From positions 1 through 21,703 of the IMG/VR virus record IMGVR_UViG_3300047177_000015: DNA of 21,703 nt. One strand, written 5' to 3'. Each line of letters opens with the position of its first letter. The first letter of the stretch is position 1. This DNA is from a virus. A model generated the notes under the pieces. The model did no database searches, was not told where the DNA came from, and worked only from the letters and a program-made list of their open reading frames with translations. The position numbers and the translations under genes were made by a program. Of this stretch, positions 2,612 to 21,703 are shown piece after piece.

Positions 2612-3451
2612 TTATGCCTCCTGGCTGACGCGGCGCAGTCGGGCGCCCATTGGGTCCATTTTGAATGGAGCCCAGCACGCCTCCGGGCTGCCGACGAACT
2701 CCGTGATGGCCCGGCCGGAACCATCCCGACGCGTGATGGCCCGCAGCGTATTGGCCGGCAAGTCGGTTGGGTTCAGCGCCGCTGCTTGCGCGTCCGCATA
2801 AACCTGGCTTTCGACCACACCGAAGTGACCTTCGTCGACGATCTTGGACAGGTCGATGTCCTTCCAAGTCGTGCTGTGCTTCTGAAACGCCGAGAGCTGG
2901 CGCTTGCGATAAGCAAACGGAGTCTCACCCGCCAGCGGCCGGGGGGCGGACGAACCAAACAGCTGAGCGACGCTGTCAGCGCGTGCCTGGATCTCGGCCA
3001 TCTTGTTGTAGTCCTCATCAGACAGCACCTTGGGCATGTTGCGCTCGAGCGCTGCCAGGCGCGCCGCCGTGTCGGCCGCATCCTTGCGCGCCTTGTCCTC
3101 GCGCTCCTTCTCCTCGGCGTCCTTGCGCGACTTGTCCTCGCGCTCCTTCTCCTCGGCGTCCTTGCGCGACTTGTCCTCGCGCTCCTTCTCCTCGGCGTCC
3201 TTGCGCGACTTGTCGGCTACCGGCTGTTCCGGCTCGCCCTTAACCTTCTTTTCCTCAGCGTCCTTTTTGAATTGGTCTTCCATCGCATCCAAACGCGACA
3301 CTGTGTCCGCCATGAACTTGTCCATGCGCGACATGCACGCATCGAGCCGGGTGGCGCGTTCCTCCGCATCCTTGCGCGCCTTGTCCTCGCGCTCCTTCTC
3401 CTCGGCGTCCTTGCGGGCGGCGTCAGCACGGTCCTTGTCTTCTTCAGGCAT
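2612..3451 (-). CDS. Putative nested scaffold protein (internal start within the Nudix-DUF2213 gene)
   Basis: An in-frame ATG at 3451-3449 (residue 311 of the long protein) is preceded by GGAGG with 5-base spacing, a better ribosome binding site than that of the full gene. Translation from it gives 279 residues starting MPEEDKDRADAARKDAEEKE, made of the coiled coil and C-terminal region without the Nudix and DUF2213 domains. This is the layout of lambda C/Nu3, where a scaffold is made from an internal start in the protease gene. The coiled-coil, charged composition suits a scaffold. The evidence is a strong site at a domain boundary; that the shorter protein is really made is inference. Confidence 0.5.
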   Translation of the reverse strand: MPEEDKDRADAARKDAEEKEREDKARKDAEERATRLDACMSRMDKFMADTVSRLDAMEDQFKKDAEEKKVKGEPEQPVADKSRKDAEEKEREDKSRKDAEEKEREDKSRKDAEEKEREDKARKDAADTAARLAALERNMPKVLSDEDYNKMAEIQARADSVAQLFGSSAPRPLAGETPFAYRKRQLSAFQKHSTTWKDIDLSKIVDEGHFGVVESQVYADAQAAALNPTDLPANTLRAITRRDGSGRAITEFVGSPEACWAPFKMDPMGARLRRVSQEA

Positions 3452-4381
3452 GGTAGCCTCCACAGCAGTTGATGAAAGGACGCCTTGTGGCGCGCCGCCC
3501 TTATCCCAAACACCTAATTCACAGATCGCCACATGGTCAACCAAGCTAGGCGTGCCCTCGATCAGCACCGTGCCGCCGTCATCCAGAGTAGAGTCGTCAT
3601 TGGCCAACGGTCGGAAGTAAGTCAAACTGGAACCCAGCAGCACACCGGGCGACGTGGACAGCACTTCGCTGCCCATCATTGTAATTGCGTCTTTGTCGAA
3701 AACCTTCGCAATACCCCACACTTCATTATCATTAATGTAGGGTAGGAAGATTGTGCCAACAATACGCTTGCTGAACTCGTCACTGTCCAGCAGCGGCTTC
3801 TCAGGATGATCCCACAGGACCGGCAACCCGTTGCAGCGCGCTAGAAAACGCTCGTTCAGGTAGAGTGTAGGGTCGCGCCAAGTGTATTCGTTATTCTTGA
3901 CGCGGTAGGCCGCACCCGTGCCTGTAATGCGCAGCGCAAACAGGGCGACGTTCTGGTAAATCTGTGGCGACACCAGATCACCGGACGAGATCATTCGCGC
4001 GATGTCGAGTTCGTCAGCGGTCAGCTTTGCCAATGCTACCGCACACCCCGGATGAAGTGGTTCCGGAGGCGCTTGTGGGTCCGCCCACATGAAACCCGTA
4101 TGCTCGTCGTTAAGCACGGGATTGAATTTGTCGCATAGCTGGACGAATGTTGTGTAATCAACACCGTCCTTTACGCGCCGGCATAGTAGCTTGCGCGCAC
4201 CTGTAGGGCAAGTGCCGAGCTCCTCTTTACACTCGCGGACAGCCGCTTGCTCAGCAGTCTCGCCAGCCTCCATCTTACCGCCAGGCGCGCCCCACGCGCC
4301 GGGTGCGTCACCTTGGTCGCTGCGCTGTAACAGCAGCACTTGCCCATCAGCGATAAAGAGAATACCGGCAGCTTGGATCAC
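2612..4381 (-). CDS. Nudix hydrolase - DUF2213 - coiled-coil fusion (putative head maturation protein)
   Basis: A 589-residue multidomain protein. Residues 1-130 are a Nudix domain with a complete Nudix box: G35, E41, R49-E50, E53-E54, G56, the metal-binding pattern of nucleoside-diphosphate-linked hydrolases. Residues about 140-305 resemble DUF2213, a phage head-module domain often suspected to be a maturation protease, with VDHVAICELGVWDKGG near 281. Residues about 312-450 are a highly charged coiled coil built on a 13-residue repeat (KDAEEKERED). The C-terminus (450-589) is globular. The gene starts with GTG and overlaps the head-morphogenesis stop by four bases (GTGA). A strong internal start at 3451 suggests a nested scaffold product. 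Enzyme function of the DUF2213 part is not shown by the sequence. Confidence 0.85.
   Translation of the reverse strand: MIQAAGILFIADGQVLLLQRSDQGDAPGAWGAPGGKMEAGETAEQAAVRECKEELGTCPTGARKLLCRRVKDGVDYTTFVQLCDKFNPVLNDEHTGFMWADPQAPPEPLHPGCAVALAKLTADELDIARMISSGDLVSPQIYQNVALFALRITGTGAAYRVKNNEYTWRDPTLYLNERFLARCNGLPVLWDHPEKPLLDSDEFSKRIVGTIFLPYINDNEVWGIAKVFDKDAITMMGSEVLSTSPGVLLGSSLTYFRPLANDDSTLDDGGTVLIEGTPSLVDHVAICELGVWDKGGAPQGVLSSTAVEATMPEEDKDRADAARKDAEEKEREDKARKDAEERATRLDACMSRMDKFMADTVSRLDAMEDQFKKDAEEKKVKGEPEQPVADKSRKDAEEKEREDKSRKDAEEKEREDKSRKDAEEKEREDKARKDAADTAARLAALERNMPKVLSDEDYNKMAEIQARADSVAQLFGSSAPRPLAGETPFAYRKRQLSAFQKHSTTWKDIDLSKIVDEGHFGVVESQVYADAQAAALNPTDLPANTLRAITRRDGSGRAITEFVGSPEACWAPFKMDPMGARLRRVSQEA
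3081..3213 (-). repeat. 39-bp in-frame tandem repeat encoding a 13-residue coiled-coil unit
   Basis: Three near-identical 39-bp copies (3081-3119, 3120-3158, 3159-3197) and a partial fourth encode KDAEEKERED-type units in the coiled coil. One further copy stands apart at 3369-3407. The copies differ by only one or two bases, which points to recent expansion by slippage or recombination and predicts length variation between relatives. Confidence 0.9.
3452..3461 (-). promoter_or_regulatory. Internal Shine-Dalgarno before the nested scaffold start
   Basis: On the minus strand GGAGG (3461-3457) and a 5-base spacer CTACC precede the internal ATG at 3451. It sits just at the end of the DUF2213-like domain, at the point where the coiled coil begins. 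Confidence 0.55.
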
Positions 4382-5235
4382 GCCGCTGTCCTCCGTAGGG
4401 CGCGCACACGCGCCAGTTCGTTGTGCCCCTTCGGTGTAATCATGTCTGGTGGTAACGCGCTAATGGCGTAGATGTATTGGTAGTGACACCTGCAAAGGAC
4501 TTCCTCACCTGGCTTAGTCATATCGTCCGTGTAGCCCGCGCCCTTGTTCATTAGGCCTTTCTCTATTGCCCAATTCCCACGGATTGCGTAGACCTTGAGG
4601 TCGCGTTCCTTGTGGTCTTCGCGGTAGTTGTAGCCTAGCTGACGCCAATTACTATGCCACACAGCAGCGATAGCACCACCATCCACCGCAATGATATTGT
4701 TGAGTTCGGAAGTAAACTTGTGCCCTTGGTCGATCAGGACGCGGCGCTCTTCAAACGGAAGCTGTGACAGCGCTTTGCGTAATTCCTTCTTTACCTCGGG
4801 CTTACGCACGGCGTCGCTGCCGTCAGGTGGGATTGAGGTGGACCAGCCAGAAAACCGTTGTAGCGTCTTTTGAATTGACGCCTCGCGGTTCAACTTGATC
4901 AAGTTAGCGGAAGCCAGTATGCGACGATCGAGTTCCGCCCGGAGGCGAGGCTTGACGCGATCCAGCGTAAAGCGGGCAACACCGGGGTGCTGACGCAGTA
5001 TGTCGCCCCGCTCCACAACACGCTGGTAGACGCTGCCTAGCACACGCGCCAGCTCCTCGCGCAACTTGTATTCGGGCACCATGCTACGCAACGCGGCACG
5101 CCGCAGCACCTCCACCCAACGCACTAGACGCTCATGGTCGTCATAACCATGCTCGGCGAAGTCCGCGATAGCTGTGGACAACGCTTCAACAAACGTCGGC
5201 TCGTCAGGGAGCGCCTTAGCCAACGAACTGCACAA
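4378..5235 (-). CDS. Phage head morphogenesis / minor head protein (Mu gpF / SPP1 gp7-like)
   Basis: A 285-residue protein. The C-terminal third carries the pattern typical of this family: WRQLGYNYREDHKERDLKVY, then GNWAIEKGLMNKGAGYTDD and GEEVLCRCHYQYIY, with a conserved Cys-x-Cys-His near the end. Members are minor capsid proteins that attach to the portal region and help start head assembly. The N-terminal two thirds is helical and charged. It lies after the portal and 81-residue genes and before the Nudix/DUF2213 gene, as usual. The start is uncertain: a TTG at 5235 directly after GGAAGG, or a TTG at 5223 that overlaps the upstream TAA. Confidence 0.8.
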   Translation of the reverse strand: MCSSLAKALPDEPTFVEALSTAIADFAEHGYDDHERLVRWVEVLRRAALRSMVPEYKLREELARVLGSVYQRVVERGDILRQHPGVARFTLDRVKPRLRAELDRRILASANLIKLNREASIQKTLQRFSGWSTSIPPDGSDAVRKPEVKKELRKALSQLPFEERRVLIDQGHKFTSELNNIIAVDGGAIAAVWHSNWRQLGYNYREDHKERDLKVYAIRGNWAIEKGLMNKGAGYTDDMTKPGEEVLCRCHYQYIYAISALPPDMITPKGHNELARVRALRRTAA

Positions 5236-5461
5236 CCTTCCAATTATGCACCGTTAGATTAGCGGCTTCACGGCTGGCCAGAAGCTGACTTGGAAACTTA
5301 GCAGCGGCGGTCCTGTCAGTGGTCCACCCGGAGTTCCCGGACATCGCGGAGCTGTAGAGGTATTCGTCCATACCGATCTCGTGCCGCACGATCACCCAAT
5401 ACCCTTGCTGCGTTTCCGACAAACGCTTGACGCGCTGCTCGCCGGTCTCGATGTCGTCCAT
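5216..5461 (-). CDS. Small protein between portal and head morphogenesis genes (81 aa)
   Basis: An 81-residue soluble protein, MDDIETGEQRVKRLSETQQG at the start, tryptophan-containing, with no membrane segment. The ATG has a good ribosome binding site (GTAGGAG, 7 bases away) that includes the TAG stop of the portal gene, so the two are likely translationally coupled. Its end overlaps the start of the head-morphogenesis gene. The family is not recognised. The WVIVRHEIGMDEYLYSS...GWTTDRTAAAKF stretch resembles small phage proteins that read like a cell-surface or enzyme-display fold, but no function can be assigned. Confidence 0.75.
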   Translation of the reverse strand: MDDIETGEQRVKRLSETQQGYWVIVRHEIGMDEYLYSSAMSGNSGWTTDRTAAAKFPSQLLASREAANLTVHNWKVVQFVG

Positions 5462-16881: not shown

Positions 16882-17405
16882 TCGGGCAGGCCGCCAATGA
16901 TCTTCACTGCAACGCCGACGTTCGGGTCATTTGGATCGGGGTTCGTGTTGACCGCTACTTCCAAGTGCCGGTCACGCCACAGATCGGGACGACGGTTCTT
17001 CAGCCAGAAGATGCAGCTTGTCGGGTCCGGTGCATAGTGCTCAACGTATTCAGCGCGAACGATCTCACCACCTTTGGTACAAAAGATCTTTTCCACTTTG
17101 TGACTGTAACCTTTTGCACGGTGGAATAGCGATTTTGCTATGTAGGCGTCAGCATTTTCACGACCATCTTTTAAGGCATTGTCAAAAGATTGGTGTGCTG
17201 CACGCCATTTGTAAATCGTAACGATGTCCACCTGATGGAAGTTCGCGATCTCCTGATCCTTAGCACCCAACAGGCAAAGATTGTAGGTTTGAACATCCAT
17301 GTATGAATGGTATTCCGTGGGGCGGCCTAGCTTGTTGGCCTCCCGCTGCGCGACCTTGTCCTCAAAGGTCGGCCGCTTCAACTTTGTAATCACTGGTCGC
17401 TGCAC
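16878..17405 (-). CDS. terS: Terminase small subunit
   Basis: A 175-residue DNA-recognition subunit. It has a helix-turn-helix-like region (LCLLGAKDQEIANFHQVDIV followed by TIYKWRAAHQ, about 45-73), and the familiar phage pattern LFHRAKGYSHKVEKIFCTKG and CIFWLKNRRPDLWRD (about 90-145). Small terminases bind the packaging site and load the large subunit. The start is GTG at 17405, overlapping the NusG-like gene's TAG (TAGTG), with GGAG 8 bases before it. The large subunit follows with a four-base overlap. Confidence 0.88.
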   Translation of the reverse strand: MQRPVITKLKRPTFEDKVAQREANKLGRPTEYHSYMDVQTYNLCLLGAKDQEIANFHQVDIVTIYKWRAAHQSFDNALKDGRENADAYIAKSLFHRAKGYSHKVEKIFCTKGGEIVRAEYVEHYAPDPTSCIFWLKNRRPDLWRDRHLEVAVNTNPDPNDPNVGVAVKIIGGLPD

Positions 17406-17893
17406 TACAGGTACTCCACGTCGTTATAGTTCAATTCCAGGTTTGTTAGACTTCGGCCAAACAAATCGATAAACACATGCACGGACTTACGATCAACGCT
17501 GGACACTACACCTTGAAATGATGCAAATGGTCCGTTGACGATTCGAACAGTCTGACCAGGCACTACAGTGTAACGCGCTGGTGGTGGCTGTTGTTCGGGT
17601 TCAAGCATTCTATTGATTACAGCATCCGGGATCGGTGTGGGATGCTCGGGTGTCGTTGAGAACAACTTGCGCACACCAAACGTCGAACAGATTGGGCGCC
17701 AGCGATCACACTGTGGATCAAACTGGACAAATAGGTAGCAGCCCAGCAGGCTTGCCAGGGATTCTTTCTTACGCTTGTTCACTATCACACGCGTCGGCAA
17801 GAACACCGTGTAGCCCTGGCGCTGTAGCTGTTGCTCAGCCAGGAATTCTTGCTTGACGTGTGATTGAACGCAAAACCACTTCGGAAATCTCAT
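17405..17893 (-). CDS. NusG/RfaH-family transcription factor
   Basis: At 162 residues it is as long as E. coli RfaH. Residues 1-95 fit the NGN domain (WFCVQSHVKQEFLAEQQLQR, LGCYLFVQFD), which contacts RNA polymerase. Residues about 108-162 are a KOW domain (VPGQTVRIVNGPFASFQGVV and FGRSLTNLELNYNDVEYL). NusG paralogues increase processivity and suppress termination, often at specific sites. Being the first gene of the packaging and structural operon, it is well placed as an antiterminator of late transcription. No good ribosome binding site precedes the ATG. A perfect hairpin is 47-71 bases upstream. Function as an antiterminator is inferred from family and position. Confidence 0.88.
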   Translation of the reverse strand: MRFPKWFCVQSHVKQEFLAEQQLQRQGYTVFLPTRVIVNKRKKESLASLLGCYLFVQFDPQCDRWRPICSTFGVRKLFSTTPEHPTPIPDAVINRMLEPEQQPPPARYTVVPGQTVRIVNGPFASFQGVVSSVDRKSVHVFIDLFGRSLTNLELNYNDVEYL

Positions 17894-19974: not shown

Positions 19975-20041
19975 GACCGGGTCTACCTTTGCGCGCCAGC
20001 GTGGGGTGCTCCCTGCGCCTGAATCGAAAGGTAGTCGCGGA

Positions 20042-20060
20042 CTTGCGGAAACGCAAGCGG
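20042..20060 (-). promoter_or_regulatory. Palindromic element, minus-strand-facing copy
   Basis: CCGCTTGCGTTTCCGCAAG read on the minus strand, about 68 bases upstream of the 36-residue gene start. The stem CTTGCG/CGCAAG has a 4-base loop. An identical copy faces the other way at 20287. Confidence 0.65.
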
Positions 20061-20105
20061 GAATCTGCTGTCTCGTCGATCTTTTTTCTGACACAACGGC
20101 AGGGC

Positions 20106-20189: not shown

Positions 20190-20286
20190 TAGCTGGCGTG
20201 CTGGCCGGGGCTACCCGCCGCTGCGGAGGACGGTTGGGCAGTTAAGGCGAGCCGACGACAAAAATCTTGCTACGACCCCCATTTTT

Positions 20287-20306
20287 CCGCTTGCGTTTCC
20301 GCAAGC
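20287..20306 (+). promoter_or_regulatory. Palindromic element, plus-strand-facing copy
   Basis: CCGCTTGCGTTTCCGCAAG identical to the element at 20042-20060, 60 bases before the start of the repeat-protein gene at 20367. A weak promoter-like TTGCGT...TATGTA (17-base spacer) lies over it. A shared operator or promoter part is likely. Confidence 0.65.
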
Positions 20307-20352
20307 CCCGGCCTATGTAGGGGTTGTGGCCGGCGCTGGTGCTGGACGAAAA

Positions 20353-20426
20353 AAAGGAGACATAACATGACCGACACGGAAGCACATCGGCGCATTGCGG
20401 CCTACGCCGCGTCTGACCGGACCGGC
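20353..20426 (+). repeat. 74-bp exact direct repeat spanning ribosome binding site and gene start
   Basis: AAAGGAGACATAAC, the ATG and the first 20 codons are identical at 20353-20426 and 21207-21280, 854 bp apart. This marks the unit of gene duplication. Confidence 0.9.
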
Positions 20427-21224
20427 TACCTCGATCTCCGCGGATGCACGGGCCTGACCACGCTGGCCGGCATGGGCAGCGTGGGGGGTGACCTCTACCT
20501 CCGCGGATGCACCCGCCTGACCACGCTGTCCGGCATGGGCAGCGTGGGGGGTGGCCTCTACCTCTCCGGCTGCACGGGCCTGACCTCGCTGGCTGGCATG
20601 GGCAGCGTGGGGGATGACCTCTACCTCCGCGGATGCACCCGCCTGACCACGCTGTCCGGCATGGGCGACGTGGGGGGTGACCTCAACCTCGACGGATGCA
20701 CAGGCCTGACCTCGCTGGCCGGCATGGGCAGCGTGGGGGGTAACCTCTACCTCCGCGGATGCACCCGCCTGACCACGCTGTCCGGCATGGGCAGCGTGGG
20801 GGGTGGCCTCTACATCTCCGGCTGCGCGGGCCTGACCACGCTGGCCGGCATGGGCAGCGTGGGGGGCGGCCTCGACCTCTCCGGCTGCACGGGCCTGACC
20901 TCACTAGCCGAGGATGAGCGTGAGCGGTTTGCGGTGCCGGTAGTGCCGCACATCGACGCCGCAATCGCTGCCGCCATCGGTGACGGCGGCGCGCTGGACA
21001 TGGCCACCTGGCACACCTGCGAGACGACGCATTGCCGCGCCGGGTGGGTGATCGCCTTGGCCGGCGAGGCGGGGGCAGCCCTGGAGCGCCGGGTTGGACC
21101 GGCCGGAGCCGGCGCGCTGATCTACCTCGCGTCCAGGCCCGGCAAGCCGATCCCGGACTTCTACGCTAGCAACGAGGACGCGCTCGCCGACATCATGGCC
21201 TGCGCCAAAGGAGACATAACATGA
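20367..21224 (+). CDS. Leucine-rich-like solenoid protein with a conserved HC-motif C-terminus (285 aa)
   Basis: The ATG follows AAAGGAG at 7 bases. Residues 1-21 are a leader (MTDTEAHRRIAAYAASDRTG). From 22 to about 181 there are eight 21-residue units of the pattern LxLxGCTxLTxLxGMGSVGG, a leucine-rich-repeat-like solenoid, probably with a Cys ladder along one face. Residues 182-285 form a separate domain with WHTCETTHCRAGWVIALAGE, then GALIYLASRPGKPIPDFYAS and a helical DALADIMACA. This C-terminal type recurs in phage proteins with repeats, by memory. The last codons are also the next gene's ribosome binding site (KGDIT, with ATGA overlap). Function unknown; interaction role inferred. Confidence 0.85.
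   Translation: MTDTEAHRRIAAYAASDRTGYLDLRGCTGLTTLAGMGSVGGDLYLRGCTRLTTLSGMGSVGGGLYLSGCTGLTSLAGMGSVGDDLYLRGCTRLTTLSGMGDVGGDLNLDGCTGLTSLAGMGSVGGNLYLRGCTRLTTLSGMGSVGGGLYISGCAGLTTLAGMGSVGGGLDLSGCTGLTSLAEDERERFAVPVVPHIDAAIAAAIGDGGALDMATWHTCETTHCRAGWVIALAGEAGAALERRVGPAGAGALIYLASRPGKPIPDFYASNEDALADIMACAKGDIT
20430..20909 (+). repeat. 63-bp tandem repeat array, first gene
   Basis: Seven complete 63-bp in-frame units and part of an eighth, highly similar at DNA level with two alternating variants (SGCTGLTSLA and RGCTRLTTLS types). Near identity suggests recent expansion by recombination. Confidence 0.9.
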
Positions 21225-21703
21225 CCGACACGGAAGCACATCGGCGCATTGCGGCCTACGCCGCGTCTGACCGGACCGGCAACCTCGACCTCTCCGGCTG
21301 CACGGGCTTGACCTCGCTGGCTGGCATGGGCGACGTGGGGGGTGACCTCTACCTTACCAGATGCACGAGCCTGACCACGCTGGCCGGCCTCGGCGACGTG
21401 GGGGATGACCTCTACCTCCGCGGATGCACCCGCCTGACCACGCTGTCCGGCATGGGCAGCGTGGGGGGTGGCCTCTACCTCTCCGGCTGCACGGGCCTGA
21501 CCTCGCTGGCTGGCATGGGCAGCGTGGGGGGCTACCTCGATCTCCGCGGATGCACGGGCCTGACCACGCTGGCCGGCATGGGCGACGTGGGGGGCGGCCT
21601 CGACCTCTCCGGCTGCACGGGCCTGACCTCGCTGGCTGGCATGGGCAGCGTGGGGGGCGCCCTCAACATCTCCGGCTGCGCGGGCCTGACCACGCTGGCC
21701 GGC
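21221..21703 (+). CDS. Second tandem copy of the repeat protein, truncated by the window
   Basis: ATG 21221 overlaps the TGA of the first copy (ATGA) and uses the AAAGGAG within that gene's tail. The first 20 residues are identical to the upstream gene, then six complete 21-residue units and part of a seventh follow (LDLSGCTGLTSLAGMGDVGG, LYLTRCTSLTTLAGLGDVGD, and so on). Unit order and variants differ from the first gene. The reading frame stays open for 161 codons to the end. A C-terminal domain like the first is expected beyond the window. Confidence 0.85.
   Translation, partial: MTDTEAHRRIAAYAASDRTGNLDLSGCTGLTSLAGMGDVGGDLYLTRCTSLTTLAGLGDVGDDLYLRGCTRLTTLSGMGSVGGGLYLSGCTGLTSLAGMGSVGGYLDLRGCTGLTTLAGMGDVGGGLDLSGCTGLTSLAGMGSVGGALNISGCAGLTTLAG
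21284..21703 (+). repeat. 63-bp tandem repeat array, second gene
   Basis: At least six full 63-bp units and a partial one, continuing off the window. Units are shuffled relative to the first array. Confidence 0.9.

Follow-up and report, generated by a model that had tools for sequence, protein, structure and literature searches.

A phage gene family with a constant C-terminal domain behind exchangeable tandem-repeat modules

The window, that is, the whole stretch of DNA analysed here (21,703 nucleotides, IMG/VR record IMGVR_UViG_3300047177_000015), is a 21.7-kb virus fragment that ends in two genes, A and B, arranged in tandem (Table 1). The exact 74-bp stretch with which the two genes begin consists of a 14-bp leader (AAAGGAGACATAAC) followed by 60 bases of coding sequence. 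The first 20 codons include a helix at residues 3-15 in the AlphaFold model, which is predicted to cap the repeats. Gene A starts with ATG, and the start of gene B overlaps the stop of gene A as ATGA. The last bases of gene A (AAAGGAG...ATGA) thus supply gene B with its Shine-Dalgarno sequence and its start codon, which makes each copy a self-contained cassette that another copy can follow. An earlier, sequence-only reading of this DNA had described the common start of the two genes and the ribosome binding site of the second gene in the tail of the first, and both are present as described. It had also stated that the array goes on past the window. This is borne out by a separate contig, L005, which is 100% identical to the window over 7,337 bp and extends it by 381 bp. 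There gene B runs through at least 12 full units without reaching a stop codon.

Table 1. Coordinates of the tandem genes, their parts and the repeat-free cyanophage gene pairs. Positions are those of the window unless a contig is named.
Feature	Position	Strand	Remarks
Gene A	20367..21224	+	285 aa; helical cap, about 7.5 LRR-like 21-residue units, C-terminal alpha domain (ORF list, AlphaFold model)
Exact 74-bp stretch, first copy	20353..20426	+	Identical to 21207-21280; leader with Shine-Dalgarno AAAGGAG, start codon and first 20 codons
Exact 74-bp stretch, second copy	21207..21280	+	Leader within gene A 3' end
Gene A repeat tract	20427..20909	+	Seven full 63-bp units and a partial eighth
125-bp exact block, gene A copy	20489..20613	+	About units A2-A3; recurs as B3-B4
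C-terminal domain, gene A	20931..21221	+	WHTCETTHCRAGW motif; matches phrog_31265 (unknown function)
Gene B	21221..21703	+	Open at window end; continues in L005 (6855-7718)
Gene B repeat tract, visible part	21281..21703	+	
125-bp exact block, gene B partner	21406..21530	+	Common with gene A
Cyanophage gene pair, CGTSHCIAGWA motif	L169 1255-2467		No repeats
Cyanophage gene pair, CGTSHCIAGWA motif	L170 1312-2378		No repeats

A third contig, L004, is likewise identical to the window where the two overlap, and the exact agreement of the window, L004 and L005 makes simple misassembly of the visible part unlikely. The sequence-only reading had named repeats produced by short-read misassembly among the findings that would refute it, and contigs do often break in these genes. 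At 16 of 79 loci the match to the C-terminal domain described below lies less than 500 bp from a contig end on the repeat side, and the window, L004 and L005 all end inside repeats. However, the three contigs are in exact agreement over the A/B junction, the reading frame is kept through repeats that consist of distinct units, and unrelated phages have tandem copies with matching junctions. That the second gene or the repeat number is a product of misassembly is therefore very improbable.

Among the genes with the same C-terminal domain that have 1.5 kb of sequence on both sides, 8 of 83 have a neighbouring copy. Arrays are found in L028, L034, L078, L071, L020 and L047. The ribosome binding site of the next copy lies in the tail of the previous gene, with an ATGA or GTGA overlap, in L028 (GGGAGGTAGGCTGTGA), L034 (GGGAGGTACCCGATGA), L047 (GGAGGTATCCGATGA) and L020. 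The arrays of L078 and L071 have separate intergenic leaders instead. At 4399-5324, L020 has the C-terminal domain twice in tandem, without repeats; the second copy opens with a short FFTGGGFFDIGYKQSGF stretch resembling the start of a DNA cytosine methyltransferase, is situated directly before a methyltransferase-like gene and looks like a chimera.

Tandem Repeats Finder gives a period of 63 for both genes, with 7.5 copies in gene A and 6.8 copies in the visible part of gene B, far beyond chance. The 21-residue units are of the same kinds in A and B and differ in their order, in agreement with the sequence-only reading. Units A2 and B3, and likewise A4 and B12, are identical at the DNA level, and exact blocks of 125 bp and 121 bp are common to different positions of the two genes. 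Such identical units and blocks are expected if recombination exchanges units.

The units have the core pattern LxLxxC..L..L. In the AlphaFold model of gene A (pLDDT 90.7, pTM 0.80) the units form a regular solenoid in which every 21 residues contribute two strands, and almost all of the PDB fold matches listed for it are leucine-rich repeat (LRR) proteins, none of them significant (best E 0.17, TM about 0.1-0.3). The repeats can thus be called LRR-like, as had been proposed. None of the curated cut-offs of the Pfam LRR clan is reached by the window repeats, LRR_4 scoring 16.4 and 17.8 bits against a cut-off of 27, and PF00805 matches neither gene, the units being of 21 residues and not pentapeptides. 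Bacterial LRR proteins resemble the window repeats in having units of about 21 residues, the LxLxxC..L..L core and a regular solenoid in the model. However, the window repeats have two short strands per turn and are not linked to LRR effectors. Similar LRR-like repeats of the GG-x-L-x-L type are present in proteins of Edwardsiella phage Edno5 and EBPR podovirus 1, but these have different C-terminal ends, lacking the HCxAGW domain.

Over the 19 units of A and B, the residue is invariant at unit positions 2, 7, 10, 11, 13, 15, 17, 19 and 20 and varies at positions 1, 3, 5, 9, 12, 14 and 18. The strands of the model are situated at positions 2-5 and 12-14. With the faces assigned from strand alternation in the model, and not from computed solvent exposure, the outward strand positions 3, 5, 12 and 14 have a pN of 0.31 and a pS of 0.20, and the inward positions 2, 4 and 13 have a pN of 0.035 and a pS of 0.085. 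Choosing the exposed positions partly by their variability gives a pN of 0.33 against a pS of 0.13, a circular grouping to which the model-based one is to be preferred as fairer. Since the 19 units recombine with each other, this contrast is not a formal selection test. Nevertheless, the replacement changes in the window concentrate on the strand positions predicted to face outward, in agreement with the variable surface that had been suggested from the sequence.

The codons seen at unit positions 1, 5 and 9 all have C as their third base. Variable codons of the NNC type could be produced by the adenine-specific reverse-transcriptase mutagenesis of a diversity-generating retroelement, which is also a phage route to variable proteins. 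However, codons ending in C are expected in a G+C-rich genome, and the reshuffling of whole units is a pattern of recombination. Furthermore, RVT_1 is found in only one of the 41 records that carry the family and is not found in the window record. Its absence from the other 40 largely refutes a retroelement, which is rejected as having next to no likelihood. The sole reverse transcriptase in these records (L171, the same record as L034, contig positions 41126-41695) is some 6 kb away from an array of three family copies.

The C-terminal domain occupies the last ~95 residues of gene A, from about residue 189 to 285. It is matched by the PHROGs v4 profile phrog_31265 with an E value of 4.4e-25; the match covers the C-terminal part and not the LRR-like repeats, and the profile is a name only, without function or structure. 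All 89 of the 89 aligned relatives match this profile, and 75 of them weakly match phrog_889. The best-conserved part of the domain is the motif WHxC.T[TS]HCxAGW (WHTCETTHC in gene A). In the 89-row alignment H32, C34, T36, H38, C39, A41, W43, G49 and G52 are invariant, an invariance that is partly selected because part of the motif served as the search pattern. In gene A, H32, C34, H38 and C39 correspond to H216, C218, H222 and C223. R40 is not invariant in the family as a whole, in which CIAGW, CMAGW, CISGW and CLAGW variants occur. AlphaFold predicts an all-helical domain of four helices (pLDDT 88.7, pTM 0.84), with the conserved histidine and cysteine residues in a less certain loop ahead of the second helix.

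No Pfam model matches the C-terminal domain and no NCBIfam model matches gene A. In the PDB, there is no relative of the domain by sequence better than E 0.099 and no match by fold at E <= 10, and a known enzyme or fold is therefore rejected. In BFVD, one viral protein of 74 residues matches the domain (E 7e-3, 45% identity). Repeat-free proteins with the motif CGTSHCIAGWA are encoded by adjacent gene pairs in the cyanophages S-CRM01 and B23. The short motif, together with weak tblastn scores (E about 0.004), suggests that a wider family may include these cyanophage proteins. The pair in B23 is closely followed, on its downstream side, by a pentapeptide-repeat gene.

The domain is preceded by at least five unrelated classes of repeats, namely pentapeptide, Cys-x-x tripeptide, LRR-like, HEAT and 12-residue repeats. 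About 100 of the 130 dereplicated genes have pentapeptide fronts (PF00805, E 4.5e-57 in L013) and 19 have Cys-x-x tripeptide fronts (L009, L122 and others). A HEAT front occurs in L033 (PF02985, E 2.9e-10) and a 12-residue repeat in L086. The LRR-like fronts are of two kinds, one in the window and the other in L080 and L098. In addition, L113 has an A/W-rich stretch in front of the domain, L020 has no repeat there, and L048 has a 19-residue repeat, which is visible only where a contig ends. The CSxCSx and CRDCSx tripeptide tracts reach 48 units (L009, L106, L109, L112, L114, L118, L122, L123 and others), and no Pfam model matches the two long tracts of this type that were tested.

In a tree of the C-terminal domain, the LRR-like gene of the window is separated from those of L080 and L098 by a branch with an SH-aLRT value of 99. 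Thus LRR-like fronts have been joined to the domain at least twice. The window gene is situated among pentapeptide and HEAT genes, its nearest relatives being the pentapeptide genes L016 and L018. The tree as a whole requires at least eight changes of repeat class, but as it has few columns and many unresolved forks, only the split with SH-aLRT 99 is relied on. The LRR units and the gene array on which the sequence-only reading was centred are real. They are not, however, the essence of the gene, for across the relatives the C-terminal domain is constant while the type of repeat is exchanged. The C-terminal domain is the informative part of gene A.

The number of repeats changes as well. The group L157/L159/L162/L165/L166, a single phage population, shows 99.9-100% identity over 1,500 bp upstream and 98.7-100% identity in the C-terminal domain. 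The open reading frames, measured from stop to stop, have 320 codons in L159, 265 in L162, 280 in L165 and 240 in L166; so measured, the absolute lengths are upper limits, and the differences within this group are those of the tract itself. A second gene of the same phage has 230, 235 or 265 codons. Bordetella prophage records have 283, 313, 363, 388 and 438 codons, with a C-terminal identity of 98-100%. Most of these length comparisons use metagenome or draft assemblies, in which the number of repeats may be miscounted. The series of natural lengths found on identical backgrounds (L159/L162/L165/L166 and Bordetella) are ready-made allelic sets. Across the family the tracts have about 4-48 units. 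In the window phage there is no variation in length among the three contigs, which are identical throughout. The earlier proposal that gene number and repeat number can change is thus supported by near-identical relatives that differ and by tandem copies elsewhere, but not by the window phage itself.

These observations could also be explained if the repeats were merely a spacer, scaffold or multimerisation rod of near-neutral length, a part that any solenoid could play, with the C-terminal domain doing the work. Such a rod would account for several unrelated repeat classes serving the same domain, for the wide range of tract lengths, for virtually identical phages that differ in tract length, and for the cyanophage stand-alone proteins, which carry a similar motif without repeats. 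However, replacement changes in the window are concentrated at the predicted outward strand positions, with the inward positions and the glycines fixed. Such varied outward faces count against a spacer because a pure rod would not need them. This is the main rival explanation, and it is somewhat unlikely.

The best-known pentapeptide-repeat proteins, MfpA and Qnr, are DNA mimics. Most members of the family have pentapeptide fronts (the window genes, which are without pentapeptides, do not), and the solenoids might likewise imitate DNA and so block gyrase, restriction or some other host enzyme that binds DNA. The charge of the repeats argues otherwise. The pentapeptide tracts have a median charge of -4 (median 16 units; range -29 to +7), the Cys tripeptide tracts a charge of -4, and gene A a charge of -3 over 168 residues; nor do HEAT, 12-residue and LRR-like fronts suggest the shape of DNA. 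In view of the low charge across the repeat classes, DNA mimicry is rejected as improbable.

The C-terminal domain was found by an alignment-based search in about 297 viral stretches and in 34 bacterial genome contigs. The latter come from MAGs and isolates classified as Pseudomonadota, Bacteroidota, Verrucomicrobiota, Myxococcota, Acidobacteriota, Actinomycetota and candidate phyla. Among 50,697 records of cultured phages one has a family member, which is interrupted there. The only cultured relatives are Flavobacterium phage FL-1 and a plasmid record from Bordetella that contains phage genes. The FL-1 copy (L012 5806-6634) has Cys-tripeptide repeats and is broken by a change of reading frame close to the HCxAGW motif. 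A search with the C-terminal part of gene A alone found nothing in phages, showing that the window copy is highly divergent. Owing to this near absence from cultured phages, an experimental handle has so far been lacking. Among the papers listed by literature searches, none describes the family in its title or abstract.

The neighbours of the relatives include Erf-like annealing proteins, RecE/exonuclease VIII, RecT, RusA, NinG, DnaB, DNA methyltransferases and repressors, and mark an early or lysogeny region. As the counts per neighbour family are small (1-3 of 115) and there is no control set, no special link to recombinases is claimed. The commonest PADLOC matches among the 115 neighbour proteins are methyltransferases, with two members each, and beyond these few there is no enrichment of defence genes. 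A defence island is rejected as the setting of the relatives, the neighbours being early-region genes and not defence clusters.

The reading that we prefer, and hold with about even confidence, is that of a phage protein in which a recognition solenoid, varied by recombination, is joined to a constant effector or docking domain and engages a changing target. The family consists of widespread phage genes with an N-terminal tandem-repeat module and a conserved, predicted all-helical C-terminal domain of ~95 residues. The repeat module would be a recognition surface that binds a macromolecule, and its unit order, tract length and exposed residues may be reshuffled by homologous recombination or gene conversion among units that are nearly identical. 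Whole copies could duplicate by means of the cassette of leader, gene and a stop doubling as the next start. As an early-region product, the protein probably works within the host, and changes in a host or rival-phage target may drive the variation. A more detailed version of this reading is possible, though doubtful: the helical domain, perhaps binding a metal via its H-x-C-...-H-C core, would recruit a conserved host machine, and the unrelated repeats would be interchangeable recognition arms, tuned by recombination in an arms race with the defences of the host or with other, rival phages.

Poxvirus ankyrin-repeat/PRANC (F-box-like) proteins are encoded by multicopy genes and have variable N-terminal repeats and a constant C-terminal docking domain. 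The similarity to the phage family is one of outline only, with no sequence or structural link claimed, and in the phage genes the class of repeat is exchanged, not only the copies.

Variable tandem-repeat proteins are already well known. In this family, however, one small phage domain persists behind repeat scaffolds that are swapped for quite different ones, and the number of repeats differs between otherwise identical phages. Rapid evolution of an early-region gene is usually a sign that its product meets a changing opponent directly. As the family is present in hundreds of uncultured phages and in prophages of several phyla, identification of the target would open up many unknown genes.

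The terminase, portal and capsid genes of the window are situated on the opposite strand, and the capsid has relatives in phages of Klebsiella, Yersinia, Pantoea, Shewanella and others, with 42-58% identity. A NusG-like antiterminator gene (NusG and KOW; 17405-17893, minus strand) lies directly before the terminase genes. Adjoining the capsid genes is the gene of a 589-residue protein (2612-4381, minus strand) that combines a NUDIX-like domain at its N-terminus with recurring charged KDAEEKEREDK segments. The noncoding stretch before gene A is flanked by a 32-nucleotide inverted repeat (84%; 20032-20063 and 20284-20315), the arms of which are themselves hairpins of the type CTTGCG-GAAA-CGCAAG and are possibly regulatory.
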